The notes under the pieces: generated by a model
Told to the model about the DNA's origin: nothing
The model's database searches: none
Seen by the model: the letters and a program-made list of their open reading frames with translations, nothing else
Translations under genes and position numbers: made by a program
Assembly: GCA_016841955.1 (NCBI GenBank)
Contig: JAENYE010000004.1
Coordinates: 1-64,000, forward strand
Direction: 5' to 3'
Length of the DNA stretch: 64,000 nucleotides
Source: Methanobacteriota archaeon
Lineage (GTDB): Archaea; Halobacteriota; Methanomicrobia; Methanomicrobiales; Methanoculleaceae
Part shown: one piece after another, positions 1,657 through 27,606 of the stretch
How positions within the stretch are numbered: the stretch's first letter is position 1
Layout: each line of letters opens with the position of its first letter

Positions 1657-1681
1657 CAAGGGACATGGAGACTAATTGGGC

Positions 1682-2842
1682 ATGAAGATCGTTCATCTGG
1701 CAGACACGCATCTCGGATTATCGGCTTTTAACCGGGTCGATCCGGATACCGGGATGAACCTGCGCGAACAGCTCATCTACGACAACTTTCTTGCTGCCGT
1801 CGACCGGATCGTTGCCTTACGTCCCGATGCGCTCGTCCACGCGGGCGACCTCTTCCACCAGGTCAAGCCGAAGACCCGCGCCTACACGACGGCGCTCGAC
1901 GCCCTCTCCCGCCTGCAGGATGCGGGGATCCCGGTGCTCGTGGTCGCGGGCAACCACAGCATGGCCAAGACCCGGTACACGGCATCGCCGTTCGAGGTGC
2001 TCGAGCGGGGAGGCTACCGCGCAAACGACCTCTACGTCGCCCACCACAACCGTTACCGGCGGGTCGAACTGGGAGACGCCGTCTTTCACCTGATACCGAA
2101 TATGCTCGAAGCAGAAGGCTACCGGACGGCATTCGAGGGGATAGAGTTTTCCTCCGGAACAAACGTGCTCGTCACCCACGGCCTTGCGAGCATCCTGAAG
2201 GACAAGCGGCTGCACACCGTTGCCGAGCACGAACTGGACGCGACGATCCTCTCCGACCGGTTCGACTACATCGCGCTCGGCCACTTCCACGGCCAGGTGC
2301 AGGTCGCCGACAACGCCTGGTACAGCGGGTCGCTCGAACACTGCAACTACGGGGAGATCGCGGAGAAGAAGGGAGGCCTCGCCGTGGACCTGGAGTCCGG
2401 GGGGGTCGGGCATATCGACCTCCCGCACACCCCCATGTTCAGCCTCGGCCGGATCAACTGCGACGGGCTCTCGGCCAAGGAGGTCGTGGACGGCATCCTT
2501 GATGCGGCCGAGAACCACGGGAAAAGAATCTACCAGGCGATCTGCCAGATCACGCTCGACGGAATACGCCGCGAGACGCTCCGTACACTCGACCAGAGGG
2601 CGCTTCAGGATATCCGGGGCCGGGCGCTGGACCTCAAACTGCAGGTGCTGGCCGTCGACGATCCGTCCCGGATCTTTTACGAGGACTCGCTCGTCGGGGT
2701 GGATTACGTCGCCGAGTTCGAGCACTTCGTGGAGAGGGAGCACCTTGCCCCCGGCGAGGAGGAGTTCGTGAAGAGGACCGGGACCGCGGTCCTCCGGTCG
2801 GTCATCGCACGCCGTAAAGAGGGAGAAAGTGCTGCTGAATAA
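1682..2842 (+). CDS. mre11: DNA double-strand break repair nuclease Mre11
   Basis: Mn-dependent 3'-5' exonuclease/endonuclease that forms the MR complex with Rad50 and starts DNA end resection. Phosphoesterase motifs appear in order: ADTHLG near the start, HAGDLFH at about 60, GNHS at about 97, VTHG at about 165 and LGHFHG at about 202. The length is 386 residues. I chose the ATG at 1682 because the TATA box predicts transcription start there; an in-frame TTG at 1676 with GGAG before it is possible. The 3' end overlaps rad50 by 14 nt. It is the first gene of mre11-rad50-nurA-herA, the usual archaeal resection cluster. Confidence 0.95.
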   Translation: MKIVHLADTHLGLSAFNRVDPDTGMNLREQLIYDNFLAAVDRIVALRPDALVHAGDLFHQVKPKTRAYTTALDALSRLQDAGIPVLVVAGNHSMAKTRYTASPFEVLERGGYRANDLYVAHHNRYRRVELGDAVFHLIPNMLEAEGYRTAFEGIEFSSGTNVLVTHGLASILKDKRLHTVAEHELDATILSDRFDYIALGHFHGQVQVADNAWYSGSLEHCNYGEIAEKKGGLAVDLESGGVGHIDLPHTPMFSLGRINCDGLSAKEVVDGILDAAENHGKRIYQAICQITLDGIRRETLRTLDQRALQDIRGRALDLKLQVLAVDDPSRIFYEDSLVGVDYVAEFEHFVEREHLAPGEEEFVKRTGTAVLRSVIARRKEGESAAE

Positions 2843-20710: not shown

Positions 20711-21937
20711 ATGTCGCATCTCACCGTCGATCTCGGAGGCCGGCCCGGCCTCGACTGCCGGGGATTCTGTTCGTACTGCTACTTCAAACACGTCAAGGGG
20801 ACGACTTCGTTCGGCTGCAGGTACTGCCTCCCCTTTCAAATTGGCTGCGACTACTGCACCCGGGGCGTGCGTGAGGAGTACGCGGGGTTCAAGGACCTCC
20901 GAACCGTCGCCGACGAGACGCTGGCGAACCTCCAGATGACGGGCGACGACATCGACCGGATCACCATCAGCGGCGGCGGGGACCCGAGCTGCTACCCGGA
21001 GTTCCGCGACCTCGTCGAACTGCTCGGCAGCATGGAGGCGCCGCTCCACATCGGCTACACCAGCGGCAAGGGGTTCGATGACCCGGGCATAGCCGATCAC
21101 CTCATCGAGAACGGCCTCTCCGAGGTCTCCTATACCGTCTTCGCCGCCGACCCCGATCTGCGGCGGCAGTGGATGCACGACCCGACGCCGGAAGCCTCGC
21201 TCGCGGTCCTCGACCGGCTCTGCGGCGAAATCGACGTCTACGCCGCAGCAGTCGTTATTCCCGGCGTCAACGACGGCGAAACCCTGGAGCAGACCTGTGC
21301 GTGGCTGGAGGAGCGGGGCGCAAAAGGGCTGATCCTGATGCGGTTTGCGAACCGGACCGACCAGGGGCTCATCCTCGGCAACGCACCGCTCATCGAGGGG
21401 CAGCAGGTCCACACCGTCGACGAGTTCCGCGACATCGTCACCGATTTGAACGAGCGGTTCTCTATGAAGATCAGCGGGACCCCGCTCGGGGATCCCTCGA
21501 TCGGGTCGCCGTTCGCGATCCTCCACGAGCCCGACCTCTTGAAGAAACTCCCCCGGGTCCGGAAGCGTGCGACGGTGATCACCGGGAGCATAGCGGCCCC
21601 CTTCATCCAGCGGATCCTCTCGATCCGCGGCTCGACCTCAAGGGTTGTTGCGGTCAGAAAGGAGATCGCCTGCCTCATCACCGCCGATGACCTCGCCGGG
21701 GTGAACCTATCGAAACTCGAGGACGTCGTGGTCATCCCCGGTCGGGCGTTCGTCCACGACGCCGAGGCCGAAAAGATCCTCTCCGCCGACGGCGTCGACC
21801 GCGAGGTGGTGCGCGGCCCCGAGATGCTGACGGCCGATGCGGAGACAAGCATGGGGATGACCCGGACGGAAGTGCTCGAAAAAGAGATGGAAGGGTTCGC
21901 AGCCCTGATCAACACCATCAACCGCTACGGCCGGTGA
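20711..21937 (+). CDS. mmp10: Methanogenesis marker protein 10, MCR arginine C-methyltransferase
   Basis: Radical SAM/B12-type enzyme that makes 5-C-(S)-methylarginine in the alpha subunit of methyl-coenzyme M reductase. Its radical SAM cysteines are CRGFCSYC at about 17-24. More Cys residues follow (CRYC and CDYC, about 36-54), as in the Mmp10 family. A GGGDPS SAM-contact motif lies at about 96. The length is 408 residues. The stop overlaps the 3' end of the convergent kinase gene by 20 nt. mcr genes themselves are not in this window. Confidence 0.93.
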   Translation: MSHLTVDLGGRPGLDCRGFCSYCYFKHVKGTTSFGCRYCLPFQIGCDYCTRGVREEYAGFKDLRTVADETLANLQMTGDDIDRITISGGGDPSCYPEFRDLVELLGSMEAPLHIGYTSGKGFDDPGIADHLIENGLSEVSYTVFAADPDLRRQWMHDPTPEASLAVLDRLCGEIDVYAAAVVIPGVNDGETLEQTCAWLEERGAKGLILMRFANRTDQGLILGNAPLIEGQQVHTVDEFRDIVTDLNERFSMKISGTPLGDPSIGSPFAILHEPDLLKKLPRVRKRATVITGSIAAPFIQRILSIRGSTSRVVAVRKEIACLITADDLAGVNLSKLEDVVVIPGRAFVHDAEAEKILSADGVDREVVRGPEMLTADAETSMGMTRTEVLEKEMEGFAALINTINRYGR

Positions 21938-23816
21938 CGGGCGGGCATGCCGGGAGCGTGAACCGGAAAGCGGCGCCGGATTCCGGATGCCCCGGCACAC
22001 GGTCCTCGACCCATACCCGGCCGCCGTAGCGCTCGACCAGGGTGCGGGTGATGTAGAGGCCGAGTCCTTTCCCGCTCTTTCTTCCCCCTTTCCTGAACTT
22101 TTCAAAGACCTGGGGCTTCTCAGCGTCCGGTATCCCGGGACCGGTATCCTCGACTGAGACCAGAGCAGCCCCCCTTTCCTCCCGGAAGGTGATCCTGACC
22201 GAGACACCGGGGCCGCCGAACTTGACGGCGTTGCCGATGAGGTTTATGAAGACTGCCGACAGGAGGTCGTCGGCAGTGACCCACCGGTCCTGCGGGATGT
22301 AGCGGATATCGACATCAGGAAAGAAGTAAATGACGCTCTTCGCGACATGGTCGAGATTCACCGGTCCGAGCACCGGGACCTCTTCCGCTATCCGCCGGAT
22401 CGTCGAGACGTTGCCGATGATCTCGGCGCTCTGCCTGACGGCGGCCGCGAGCTTCCCGGCGAGGTCCTTCTCCGGCCCGGAGAGCGTCTCGGCAAGGAGC
22501 GTTGCGTAGCCGATGGCGACGGTGTTTGCGTTGTTGATGTCGTGCGTCATGAGGTCCAGGTAGAAGTTCGCATGCTCGTGGAGCCGCATCCGCTCTACAG
22601 CGCTCCCGATCTCCCGGCCGATGGAGGCGAGCAGCTCCCGCTCTTCGGGGGAGAAGACGTGCACGTCCCGGCTGACAAGGTTGACGGCGCCGGTGACCCG
22701 CTCCCCGGCGATGATGGGGATGCTTGCAAACGCCTGGATTCCTGCGCAGGCATCCTGCGGGTAGGCACGCAGGTAGTCTTCCACGAAGTGCGCCGTACCC
22801 CGCCCGAGGACCGCATCGTAAGGCGGGGCGTTCAGGTCGACGATCCGCCGCCGGAACGAGAACCCTTCCGGGAGCCCGAGTTCGGCGACCAGTTCGGCCC
22901 TGGACCGGCCGGGGTTGATCAGGTATACGCCGCCTCCTTCAAAATCGAGGAGTTCCAGGGTCTTCTCGAGCACGCCCGCCAGCAGTTCGTCGATGCTCGC
23001 CGACGACGTGGCGGTCCTGACCACCTGGCTGATTACGTAGAGCTGGGCGTTCCTGCGTCGGACCTTCTCCTCGGCGAGTCTCTGTGCGGTGACGTCCGCA
23101 ACACCGACGGCCACGCCCGGATACCCGGGGCTCACGCCGGTGACCGGGGAGGCGGCGAGTCTGGCGTCGATCCCCGCGCCATCTGAACGCCGGAGCCGGA
23201 GCCCGACCTCCGCCCGCCCCCTCCCGCCCTGCTCGATCAGCGCCTTAGCCCGCGGGACGTCGCCCTGATCGACGAAGGAGAGGAAAGGGGCGCCCTGCAT
23301 CCGGCCGACGGCGTAGCCGAGGATCTCCGCCATCCGGGCGCTGGCAAAGAGGATGGTGCCTCCCGGGTCGACCAACAGAACTCCCTCGTGCAGGCTCCTG
23401 CCGATCTCGCACCACAGGCGATCCACTCTGTCGAGTACCGTCTCAGCACGCTTCAGCGCGAGGGCGTGCCGGACGGTGCAGACCAGGAGTTCGGGGGTAA
23501 GCCGCTCGCGGACCAGGTAGTCGTCCGCACCGCGCCAGAGTGCCCTGACCGCCGCATCGAGGTCGTCGCGCGAAACCAGGAGGACGACCGGAATGCCGGG
23601 GGCTTCGTCGCTCACTCGCGCCGCTGCCCTGGGCTCCGGGCCGGGGTCGAGCAGGATGAGGTCGAACGGCTCGCGCCGGAGAGCGTCGAGGCATTCGGCA
23701 AACTGCCGGTGCGAGACCACTTCGGCCGGGAGCCCGGCCTTTCGAAGGCCCTCTCCGACCAGGGCGGCGTCGCCCGGGCTCCCGGTGATGACGAGCAGCC
23801 TGAGCGGGTCGGGCAC
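21918..23816 (-). CDS. Hybrid-type sensor histidine kinase (receiver-like, PAS, GAF, HisKA-HATPase)
   Basis: 632 residues, soluble. A receiver-like N-terminal domain (about 5-125) keeps the central Asp in LILLDPG but has lost the usual acidic pair near its start (LLVITGSPGDA). A PAS domain (about 150-265) and a GAF domain (about 280-420) follow. The kinase half has the H-box LDLMTHDINNAN (about 430), N-box LIGNAVKFGG and G-boxes DTGPGIPD and KGLGLYI. No response regulator is adjacent. The H-box and C-terminal half closely resemble the kinase at 25732-27606. Confidence 0.9.
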   Translation of the reverse strand: MPDPLRLLVITGSPGDAALVGEGLRKAGLPAEVVSHRQFAECLDALRREPFDLILLDPGPEPRAAARVSDEAPGIPVVLLVSRDDLDAAVRALWRGADDYLVRERLTPELLVCTVRHALALKRAETVLDRVDRLWCEIGRSLHEGVLLVDPGGTILFASARMAEILGYAVGRMQGAPFLSFVDQGDVPRAKALIEQGGRGRAEVGLRLRRSDGAGIDARLAASPVTGVSPGYPGVAVGVADVTAQRLAEEKVRRRNAQLYVISQVVRTATSSASIDELLAGVLEKTLELLDFEGGGVYLINPGRSRAELVAELGLPEGFSFRRRIVDLNAPPYDAVLGRGTAHFVEDYLRAYPQDACAGIQAFASIPIIAGERVTGAVNLVSRDVHVFSPEERELLASIGREIGSAVERMRLHEHANFYLDLMTHDINNANTVAIGYATLLAETLSGPEKDLAGKLAAAVRQSAEIIGNVSTIRRIAEEVPVLGPVNLDHVAKSVIYFFPDVDIRYIPQDRWVTADDLLSAVFINLIGNAVKFGGPGVSVRITFREERGAALVSVEDTGPGIPDAEKPQVFEKFRKGGRKSGKGLGLYITRTLVERYGGRVWVEDRVPGHPESGAAFRFTLPACPPVTGRSG

Positions 23817-23937: not shown

Positions 23938-24504
23938 TTACCGAACGGTCTTTACCAGCCCGAGGAACCGTTCGACGATCCACTCGTTCCTGGCCTCCGG
24001 GTGGAAGAGGAGGCCGTAGAGGGGGAGCGAGCGGTGCCGGATCGCCTGGACGCACCGGTCGGATGCGGCGAGGGGTATGAACGCATCCGGCACCTGCACG
24101 GCGCATTCGTGCAGTTCGTATGCGGGAAAACCTTCCCTCCCGGCAAAGAGGGGGTCGGGCGCGAGCACCCGGACGTCGGTCATGCCGATCTCGCAGCACG
24201 GTTCGGCTGCGGCACCGAAGGCCGCCGCAAGGGCCCGCATGCCGGAGGATATGCCGAGCACCGGGCGCTCGAATGCAAGAAGCCACCGGAACCGTTCGGG
24301 ATGCTCCGCAAACCCGGTGTCCCGGAGCGCCGTCCCGCAGAGGATCACCGCGTCCGCGGCCTCGACCTCCGGTGCGCCGACGGCGGTGTAGTGGCGGGTG
24401 CAAAACGGCGCTCCGGTCTTGCGGAGAAGCCGTTCGACCGGTCCGACGAACTCGTCCCGGGAGAGCGAGCCGTCCCGGTAGCAGAGGTCGACGACCAGGA
24501 TCAT
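23938..24504 (-). CDS. Class I glutamine amidotransferase-like protein lacking the nucleophile
   Basis: 188 residues with the class I amidotransferase fold pattern: VVDLCYRDGS at the start, an AVILCGT strand, an elbow motif VLGISSGMRAL (about 80-90) and a C-terminal LFHPEARN (about 167-174). In active enzymes the elbow is GxCxGxQ; here the Cys is Ser and the Gln is Arg, while His and Glu remain. It may be inactive as a glutaminase or use another chemistry. Its ATG overlaps the stop of the Dph6-like gene upstream (ATGA), so the two are coupled, suggesting a partner role. Confidence 0.8.
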   Translation of the reverse strand: MILVVDLCYRDGSLSRDEFVGPVERLLRKTGAPFCTRHYTAVGAPEVEAADAVILCGTALRDTGFAEHPERFRWLLAFERPVLGISSGMRALAAAFGAAAEPCCEIGMTDVRVLAPDPLFAGREGFPAYELHECAVQVPDAFIPLAASDRCVQAIRHRSLPLYGLLFHPEARNEWIVERFLGLVKTVR

Positions 24505-25181
24505 TTTGCCACCAGCCCCGCCCGCTCGATCCGGAGGACGCCGTTGTAGTTCCGGTAGGCCTTCGATGCCTCCTCGATCGCGATCCGCCGGGAGAAGAAG
24601 GGGGCGTCGACGACGAACGTCTCAAACTCCCCTCCTTCGCCGGTGAGGGTGATCCGGTATTTCCGGGCGATCTCCCGGAGTTCGTCGAGGGTGCGGCGGT
24701 CGATCTCCCTCCCGAGCCAGGATGCGTCGAAGGGGCTGGAGAAGACGCCTACGATGACGACCTTAAAGCCCGCGTCGATGAGTTCTTCCATGTAGGCCTC
24801 CTGGTCCGGGCTCCAGAGGGGGTTGAAGCACCAGAGGCCCAACTCAAGGCAGACCTGCTGGACCCTCGCTGCCTGGTAGATCGAGAGGATCGCCCCGGTG
24901 ACGACTCCTTCGATCCCGAACCGCTCCCGGGCGGCAAGAAGAGCCCGCTTCAGGTCCAGGAGTTCTTCCTCCTTCTCTCCTGCGGTCTCAACCTCCACGA
25001 GAGGGAGCCCCGCCGCCTCGGCCTGCAGTGCGGCGAGGCGGATGTTCGGGGTGTGGAACATGTAACTCTCGGGGTTCCGAGAGATGACCGTGATCAGGCA
25101 GACCACTTCTTCCTGCTGCATTGCTTTCCAGCAGGCGAACGTGGAGTCTTTCCCGCCGGAGAAGAGCACGCCGAGTTTCAT
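24501..25181 (-). CDS. Dph6-like ATP pyrophosphatase (diphthine-ammonia ligase family)
   Basis: 226 residues with the PP-loop SGGKDST at about 8-14 and the family stretch GEGGEFET at about 181. In eukaryotes Dph6 amidates diphthine on elongation factor 2, and archaeal members are assumed to do the same, with ammonia or glutamine as N donor. The ATG at 25181 gives the standard N-terminus (KLGVLFSGGKDS); the longer ORF before it is basic non-coding sequence. It is coupled to a degenerate amidotransferase gene. Confidence 0.85.
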   Translation of the reverse strand: MKLGVLFSGGKDSTFACWKAMQQEEVVCLITVISRNPESYMFHTPNIRLAALQAEAAGLPLVEVETAGEKEEELLDLKRALLAARERFGIEGVVTGAILSIYQAARVQQVCLELGLWCFNPLWSPDQEAYMEELIDAGFKVVIVGVFSSPFDASWLGREIDRRTLDELREIARKYRITLTGEGGEFETFVVDAPFFSRRIAIEEASKAYRNYNGVLRIERAGLVAK

Positions 25182-25731: not shown

Positions 25732-27606
25732 ATGGCTTCAGCAGACAGCAGCACCGGACTCGTGAACCAGAGGCTCAACTGGCAGCTGCTTGCCGCCGCG
25801 CCCGTCCTTCTGCTGGCACTGGTCGTTGCGGCCCAGTTCTTCGTGAATATTCCGTTTGATTTCGTTGCTCCCTTCCAGGCGGCACTCAACGTCCTCCCGA
25901 ACATGGGTTCCGTGCTCCTGGCCGTTCTCGTGGCATGGGCCGCGATGAAGACCGGGCGGCTGCAGCTTGTCTGGATGGGGTCCGGCATTCTCGTGCTGAG
26001 CCTGGCCATTCTGCTTGCGAACCTGTTCGGGACCCCGATCAGCCTGAACAACGGGGTGCAGATCCAGAATCTCGGTGCCGTTCTCGCCGGTGCCCTGCAT
26101 CTTGCCGGCGCTCTGATCGCCGTCTTCTCAATCGGACTCGCCAGGCCCGATCCGCGACAACGGGCGGTTGCACTCGCAGCGGGCTACGGCGGCAGCATAG
26201 CGGCGGTCACCCTGATCGTCATCGCGAGCACGGCCGGGGTGATTCCCGTATTCTTCATCCCGGGAGAGGGAGGGACCGCGATCCGGCAGGTGGTCATCAC
26301 CCTCGCTGCGGGTCTCTTTGCCGCTGCTGCGCTGGTGGTATTTGTAAACTATATTCGTTCGCGTTCGTCGTTCCAGTATCTATACAGTCTGGCGCTGGCT
26401 CTTCTCGCCCTCGCCCAGATCGCGTACCTGCTCACCCTGTCCCGCGGCGACCTCATGGCCTGGGCAGGCAGGGCAGGGCAGTGGGGTGCCTCCCTGTACT
26501 TCCTGCTGGCTCTGCTCCTGACCCTCCGCCTTTCGGGCGGCCGCATAGCGGACGTCCATTACGTGCTGGACTACATCTTTCCTCCCTCCAGCAAAGGCTA
26601 CAGGTTTCTGATCGAGTCGTCCCCCGACGCAATCATCGGCCTGGATGCGGGAGGAAACGTGCTGGTATGGAATGCTGCCGCCGAGAGCATACTCGGCTAC
26701 AGCAGCAGGGAGGTCGTAGGGAGGCCTATCAGGGATCTGGAAAGCAACCCGGTTCCGGAAGGTTCCGGCACGCAGGAGCCGAGGGAGATATTTTTCCGGC
26801 GCCGGGACGGCAGAGAGATGTGGCTTGAGGTCTCGGTGGCGCACTGCACCGTCCGCGGGAGTCCGATCGCCACCGTCAATATCAGGGACATCACCGATCG
26901 GAAGCGGGCGGAAGAGGAGCGAAGACAACTTTACGAGAAACTTGAGGATGCGCACCGTGAGGCGAACCTGTATCTCGACATCATGACCCATGACATCAGG
27001 AACGCCAACACCGTCACGACGATGTACGCAGATCTCATGGTCGAGATGCTGGAGGGCGAGCCGGGTGCGTATGCAGAGAAACTGCGCGGCAGTGTCGAGA
27101 AGAGCAATGAAATTCTCCGGAATGTCGCCACCATCAGGCGGCTTCAGGAGGAGCCGTCCCTGCTTGTTCCGGTGAGCCTCGATACCGTCGTCCGAAAGGA
27201 GATCGACACCTTCCCCGGAGCATCGATCCGGTACGAGGACGCGCCGGTCGAGGTGAGGGCGGACGAACTCCTCCCCGATGTCTTTGCGAACCTCATCGGC
27301 AACGCCGTCAAGTTCGGTGGACGGGACGTCGAGGTAACCATCCGGGTCAGCGAGCTGGACGAGGAGGTCGAGGTCTCGGTCGAGGACACCGGCCCCGGTG
27401 TTCCGGACGACGTGAAGGAGAGACTCTTCCGCCGGCTGGAGCGCGGAAAAGCCAGAGGTCCGGGCGAGGGCCTCGGACTCTTCATCTCCCGGATGCTCAT
27501 CGAGCGCTACGGCGGCCGGATATGGGTCGAGGACCGGGTGCCCGGCCGTCCGGAGGAGGGAGCGGCATTTTTGTTCACGCTCCGGAAAAGCACGCAGGAG
27601 GGGTGA
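25732..27606 (+). CDS. Membrane sensor histidine kinase with PAS domain
   Basis: 624 residues. Seven or eight hydrophobic helices fill residues 15-275 as an integral sensor module. A PAS domain follows (about 290-400; SSPDAIIGLDAGGNVLVWN), with a PAC end at INIRDITDRK. The kinase core has H-box LDIMTHDIRNAN (about 416), N-box LIGNAVKFGG and G-boxes DTGPGVPD and EGLGLFI. The kinase half is a close relative of the soluble kinase at 21918-23816. No response regulator is nearby, which is common for methanogen kinases. Confidence 0.9.
   Translation: MASADSSTGLVNQRLNWQLLAAAPVLLLALVVAAQFFVNIPFDFVAPFQAALNVLPNMGSVLLAVLVAWAAMKTGRLQLVWMGSGILVLSLAILLANLFGTPISLNNGVQIQNLGAVLAGALHLAGALIAVFSIGLARPDPRQRAVALAAGYGGSIAAVTLIVIASTAGVIPVFFIPGEGGTAIRQVVITLAAGLFAAAALVVFVNYIRSRSSFQYLYSLALALLALAQIAYLLTLSRGDLMAWAGRAGQWGASLYFLLALLLTLRLSGGRIADVHYVLDYIFPPSSKGYRFLIESSPDAIIGLDAGGNVLVWNAAAESILGYSSREVVGRPIRDLESNPVPEGSGTQEPREIFFRRRDGREMWLEVSVAHCTVRGSPIATVNIRDITDRKRAEEERRQLYEKLEDAHREANLYLDIMTHDIRNANTVTTMYADLMVEMLEGEPGAYAEKLRGSVEKSNEILRNVATIRRLQEEPSLLVPVSLDTVVRKEIDTFPGASIRYEDAPVEVRADELLPDVFANLIGNAVKFGGRDVEVTIRVSELDEEVEVSVEDTGPGVPDDVKERLFRRLERGKARGPGEGLGLFISRMLIERYGGRIWVEDRVPGRPEEGAAFLFTLRKSTQEG

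Follow-up and report, generated by a model that had tools for sequence, protein, structure and literature searches.

What could an amidotransferase bearing a serine in place of its nucleophilic cysteine contribute to diphthamide synthesis, and why should its gene overlap the gene of a Dph6-like ligase? The question is raised by two genes of the window, i.e. the whole stretch of 64,000 nucleotides that was analysed. A sequence-only reading had described a Dph6-like ligase and an amidotransferase tied by an ATGA overlap, with Ser in the nucleophile elbow (GISSG) and a retained HPE motif. Both open reading frames, their overlap and these residues were confirmed as follows:

24501-25181, minus strand: dph6 (diphthine--ammonia ligase, 226 aa), upstream member of the pair; TIGR03679, 284.5 bits; PF01902, 2e-73
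23938-24504, minus strand: class I glutamine amidotransferase (GATase), 188 aa, with Ser for the nucleophile Cys, downstream member of the pair; PF00117, 5.7e-12
24501-24504, minus strand: ATGA overlap, start ATG of the GATase gene on stop TGA of dph6 (read from the sequence)
24241-24255, minus strand: nucleophile elbow (residues 84-88), GISSG here where most orthologues read GICAG (sequence and alignment)
24249-24247, minus strand: codon 86, TCC, encoding Ser (sequence)
24235-24237, minus strand: residue 90, Arg, at nucleophile +4; 51 of the 57 loci from outside Methanoculleus have Gln (alignment)
23995-24003, minus strand: His-Pro-Glu (HPE) of the class I triad, residues 168-170, kept (sequence and alignment)

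The 4-base overlap was found at 114 of the 137 loci with distinct GATase sequences. A promoter and terminator scan 5' of dph6, made with a sigma-70 model unsuited to archaea, found none. The gene for Mmp10, the radical SAM arginine methyltransferase of methyl-coenzyme M reductase (TIGR03278), lies close to the pair (20711-21937, plus strand), so that two core-protein modification enzymes share one neighbourhood, perhaps by chance association. The pair is flanked by two sensor histidine kinases whose C-terminal parts are alike (21918-23816, minus strand; 25732-27606, plus strand).

The window Dph6 is predicted to be a diphthamide synthetase from its equivalog score, its motifs and the accompanying pathway genes, which all agreed with this function. 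It exceeded the TIGR03679 equivalog cut-off (284.5 vs 197.3 bits), matched the Pyrococcus structures 2d13 and 3rjz, and displayed the PP-loop SGGKDS together with GEGGEFET, in line with the GEGGEF/YET/S motif quoted for Dph6 in one part of PMC3541065. PF01902 was the sole family over its cut-off in this protein, and apart from the window gene nothing in the genome (G000; 2.43 Mb, 9 contigs) matched PF01902. Because of this single match and of the score above the equivalog cut-off, a paralogue with another job is less likely. The rest of the pathway was represented by one Dph2 and one Dph5, and the archaeal EF-2 of this genome carries LHEDAIHRGPAQ (HEDAIHRGPAQ), a loop which we take to be the site of the modified His. 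A partial repeat of EF-2 (last ~45 codons) was also observed ~0.9 kb downstream of the EF-2 gene (contig 3, 815243-815377; L236), with similar sequence after the gene and after the partial copy, as after tandem duplication.

The amidotransferase scored above the PF00117 cut-off (46.1 vs 22.8 bits) and below the cut-offs of all NCBIfam equivalog models. Against GMP synthetase subunit A (NF001975) it reached 54.2 bits for a cut-off of 198, which places it outside this family, and a separate true subunit A (239.7 bits) is encoded elsewhere in the genome. Its structural model (mean pLDDT 94.4) displayed the GATase fold, the best Foldseek matches being GMP synthetase subunit A structures, and CPS1 structures were among the fold matches; no further domain was found with Pfam. 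As regards the features of an active class I glutaminase, the catalytic His and Glu (HPE) are present and the Cys of GxCxG is replaced by Ser86.

The association of the two genes within the order was evaluated by hand count from listings of 150 genomes, with thresholds of E <= 1e-20 for Dph6 and E <= 1e-18 for the GATase. Dph6 was present in 139 of the 150, and a wide gap in its scores separated 85 genomes at E <= 1e-79 (type A) from 54 with no value better than ~1e-48, which comprise type B and paralogues. The GATase was found in 84 of the 85 type A genomes, the exception (G050) having its dph6 cut by a contig end, in none of the 54 with the other Dph6 type and in none of the 11 without Dph6. 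When 84 loci were extracted, both genes were present, adjacent and on the same strand in 83, the last one (L081) stopping at a contig edge. No GATase was found at 20 loci surrounding Dph6 copies other than type A (18 of type B, 2 paralogues). Two genomes of the genus to which the window belongs (G088 and G096; 93 and 95% complete) had neither dph6 nor the GATase gene, through either an assembly gap or joint loss. At the 18 type B loci (L239-L256), the gene directly after dph6 was a large, conserved ORF resembling a membrane protein (~580-650 aa, named by eye), and a similar ORF followed dph6 in L266, L267 and L268; this is a possible further partner of Dph6.

The pairing extended beyond the order. 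A scan of named genomes, from which the best 80 of 239 relatives were taken as loci, recovered many Methanoculleus loci, further Methanomicrobiales, Methanothrix and metagenome bins labelled Aenigmatarchaeota, Nanohaloarchaea and Bathyarchaeota, although such bin names may be wrong. At 79 of these best 80 of 239, a dph6 gene preceded the GATase gene in the same orientation, in most cases directly; L170 had no flank. Throughout the phylum, the GATase family exceeded 94 bits in 72 of 392 sampled genomes (hand count), of which the order accounts for 47 and other lineages for 25. For the latter, a same-strand Dph6 was found in 20/20 fetched and in 2/2 more, and in three others (G192, G208 and G239) the pair was adjacent by coordinates. 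Single-frame Dph6-GATase fusions occurred in one clade (L111, L112 and L115) and in a Methanothrix bin (L198), both domains being recognized by Pfam in L111 and L198; a single protein thus unites the two in at least two other archaeal lineages. The frame of L176 is likewise continuous, but it crosses unknown bases; this locus was not considered a fusion, though it is among the 5 'fused' entries of the 137-sequence tally. The model of the natural fusion L198 had good domains (mean pLDDT 88.5), its Dph6 domain aligning with 3rk1 (Z 33.6, rmsd 1.1, 218 aligned) and its GATase domain with 2a9v (Z 25.5, rmsd 1.9, 179 aligned); owing to a pTM of 0.55, the domain arrangement is unreliable and no interface was defined. 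At L211, a TnpB-like ORF (1666-2826, minus strand; recognized by eye as a transposon-type protein with the zinc-finger motif CPEC...CKC) splits dph6 from the GATase gene. Dph6 can do without this GATase, since L259 and L260 displayed a type-A-like Dph6 without it, as did all 18 type B loci with theirs. The Dph6-GATase pairing is real and old.

Class I GATases contact their substrate through a Gln located four residues after the nucleophile. Both positions were followed in an alignment of 84 GATases of the order, 27 from the genus of the window, Methanoculleus, and 57 others. Column 86 held Ser in 27/27 loci of the genus, and Cys (55/57) or Gly (2/57) elsewhere; Cys was also found in L141 and L155, records named Methanoculleus and placed in other genera of the sample. 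Residue 90 was never Gln in the genus (0/27), being replaced by Arg, Leu or Met. Among the 137 distinct GATase sequences, 102 had Cys, 33 Ser and 2 Gly. The tree needs five nucleophile changes, three to Ser and two to Gly, in the lineages Methanoculleus, L226+L227, L180, L083/L167 and L112 (the fused rows L261, L262 and L265 were disregarded in the Dph6 tree). Because the trees were quick and had many open forks, five is a minimum-change count, of which at least four are forced by starred branches, and the changes in L180, L083/L167 and L112 each rest on a single genome, L083 and L167 being, to judge from its length, the same contig. The second Ser lineage (L226 and L227) has also lost the triad His (NPE or SPE). 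After the nucleophile losses, the GATase gene stays beside dph6.

These distributions bear on several points of the sequence-only reading. An error at the Ser codon, which it had named as a possible refutation, is ruled out for the genus by 27 concordant loci; such an error may lie behind the single-genome losses of L180, L112 and L083/L167. Conservation of the pair, which it had proposed to check, was borne out by adjacency in all 83 loci of the order holding both genes, and since Ser was also invariant in the genus, neither the pairing nor the Ser is due to chance. Orthologues with a normal Cys and a separate location had been expected to speak against the link: those with Cys do exist (55/57), but at the same place beside dph6. 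The description of an amidotransferase without its cysteine holds for the genus and a few other lineages and not in general, most orthologues keeping Cys. The broader proposal of a partner in diphthamide synthesis is well supported, for its functional link and, in this genome, for an ammonia-related role without catalysis, by the pairing, the fusions and the conserved nucleophile loss.

Constraints on the protein were estimated from 39 positions conserved at >=90% in 53 loci outside the genus (the 57 less L081, L083, L112 and L115). Of these 39, 32 persist in Methanoculleus; C86, A87 and Q90 are kept in 0/27, and four other positions (26, 54, 98 and 131) are relaxed. In the 53 Cys-bearing loci, A87 was found in 53 and Q90 in 48. 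HPE was nearly universal across the GATases compared, the triad His being changed in 2/27 and the Glu in 1/27 members of the genus (L015 and L029). The GATase of the genus is under purifying selection: median pairwise dN/dS (NG86) over its 27 loci was 0.335 for the GATase and 0.188 for Dph6, and no in-frame stop was found in its GATase matches. Outside the genus (50 loci, among them L083 with its Gly), the corresponding values, near saturation, were 0.375 and 0.231. Pairwise distances of Dph6 and the GATase were correlated (r 0.85, 79 loci), which mostly mirrors common descent.

Altogether, three findings make it very likely that the two proteins would form a two-subunit diphthamide synthetase, with parts mirroring those of archaeal GMP synthetase: the genes are paired, the GATase accompanies a single Dph6 type within the order, and the two are fused at some loci. 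Most orthologues, which keep Cys, are probably working glutaminases, and for this reason the pairing is most simply read as a glutamine-dependent synthetase from which the Ser form was derived. Loss of the nucleophile and of Gln90 makes glutaminase activity in Methanoculleus appear very unlikely, so that the retained GATase should have another role. The reading that we favour, and consider distinctly probable, is that of a synthetase that would have been glutamine-dependent ancestrally and would have become ammonia-dependent in Methanoculleus, with a retained pseudo-glutaminase. Dph6, an ATP pyrophosphatase, would adenylate the diphthine carboxylate on EF-2, and the dedicated class I GATase subunit would ancestrally have hydrolysed glutamine and given NH3, as in archaeal GMP synthetase. 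In the genus, the change of Cys86 to Ser and the loss of Gln90 should prevent glutamine hydrolysis; Dph6 would draw on free ammonia, and the dead GATase would have been retained for a structural or conducting role, in which it stabilises Dph6 or guides ammonia. What we infer here is that the two proteins form a physical complex, that the Cys forms split glutamine, and that the Ser form goes with ammonia use and a structural role. Methanoculleus is known from ammonia-rich digesters, according to a part of PMC5062929; as all 27 loci of the genus are without Cys, such a habitat as cause of the change is speculation.

Another possible explanation, which we regard as unlikely, is that in all lineages the GATase serves primarily without catalysis, as a scaffold, for EF-2 docking or as an ammonia gate, its glutaminase activity being incidental. 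About five nucleophile losses with the gene kept beside dph6, and dN/dS values that are alike in and outside the genus, would suit such a role, but Cys in 102 of the 137 distinct sequences and a nearly universal HPE would be needless for a pure scaffold, and the constancy of A87 and Q90 among Cys loci (53/53 and 48/53) also argues against it. The decay of the gene, carried along as a pseudogene by its overlap with dph6, could be suspected from the catalytic loss and from a dN/dS above that of dph6 (0.335 vs 0.188); however, the uninterrupted frames in the genus, the 32 of 39 positions kept and a dN/dS near that of the outside orthologues make this the least probable of the readings considered.

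Roles based on the Ser form itself can also be considered. It may be a glutamine sensor, which binds glutamine or another amide without splitting it and adjusts Dph6 to nitrogen status. The Ser form retains HPE and most of the conserved positions, and an elbow Ser can presumably leave the binding pocket in place, but the loss of Q90 in all 27 loci should weaken glutamine binding and Pfam revealed no further domain, so that this role is quite improbable. A somewhat lower probability still is given to Ser86 acting as nucleophile of an altered reaction (a hydrolase, or use of another amide donor): the genus shows no drift at this position, where Ser is invariant, yet the second Ser lineage is without the triad His, others have Gly, and human CPS1, with Ser at this position, does not use glutamine, as stated in a section of PMC4655335.

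The favoured reading, an ancestral glutamine-dependent synthetase turned to ammonia in Methanoculleus, can be compared with known systems. Archaeal two-subunit GMP synthetase also combines a class I GATase subunit, the closest in family and fold, with an ATP-pyrophosphatase partner, which adenylates the substrate ahead of amidation (PMC9312489, in part). It differs in that the partner here is Dph6, the GATase scores far under the subunit A cut-off and the nucleophile is Ser. Human CPS1, in the part of PMC4655335 concerned, has Ser294 for Cys and uses free ammonia; it likewise keeps a class I GATase domain with a Cys to Ser change, whereas synthetase and substrate are different, so that the likeness, known here from sequence, lies in the possible working and not in membership.

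A link between glutamine amidotransferases and Dph6 is, as a kind, already known. An AsnB/GAT-II domain fused to Dph6 in some archaea was proposed as NH3 source in a portion of PMC3541065, and Dph6 fused with a class II GATase and an Asn synthase domain was found in L261 and L262 (Pfam). In those fusions the amidotransferase is class II, has an extra PP-loop domain and is N-terminal, whereas the amidotransferase of the present pairing belongs to the unrelated class I and is mostly encoded by a separate, overlapping downstream gene; the window Dph6, 226 aa with PF01902 alone, is not such a fusion. Fungal and plant Dph6 carry C-terminal RidA-like domains proposed to supply ammonia (PMC3541065 and PMC3585130, in part), instead of a glutamine amidotransferase. 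No description of a class I GATase with Dph6 was found in the titles, openings of abstracts and text passages covered by the literature search; within that scope, the class I pairing appears unreported.

We give even chances to a wider proposal, in which the pair would be an unrecognised two-subunit GMP-synthetase-like enzyme that has switched from glutamine to free ammonia in several independent events, one of them in the Methanoculleus ancestor, with the dead subunit still needed for channelling or docking. If true, archaeal Dph6 and its GATase would offer a series of natural replicates of the CPS1 conversion. As noted in part of the yeast paper (PMC3585130), archaeal Dph6 orthologues are without RidA-like domains and the function may be divided among polypeptides. 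The dedicated GATase would be a direct, testable candidate for the amide-donor partner of Dph6 in a large archaeal group, and the repeated loss of Cys with the protein kept may serve as a natural experiment on the roles of glutaminase subunits besides the making of ammonia.
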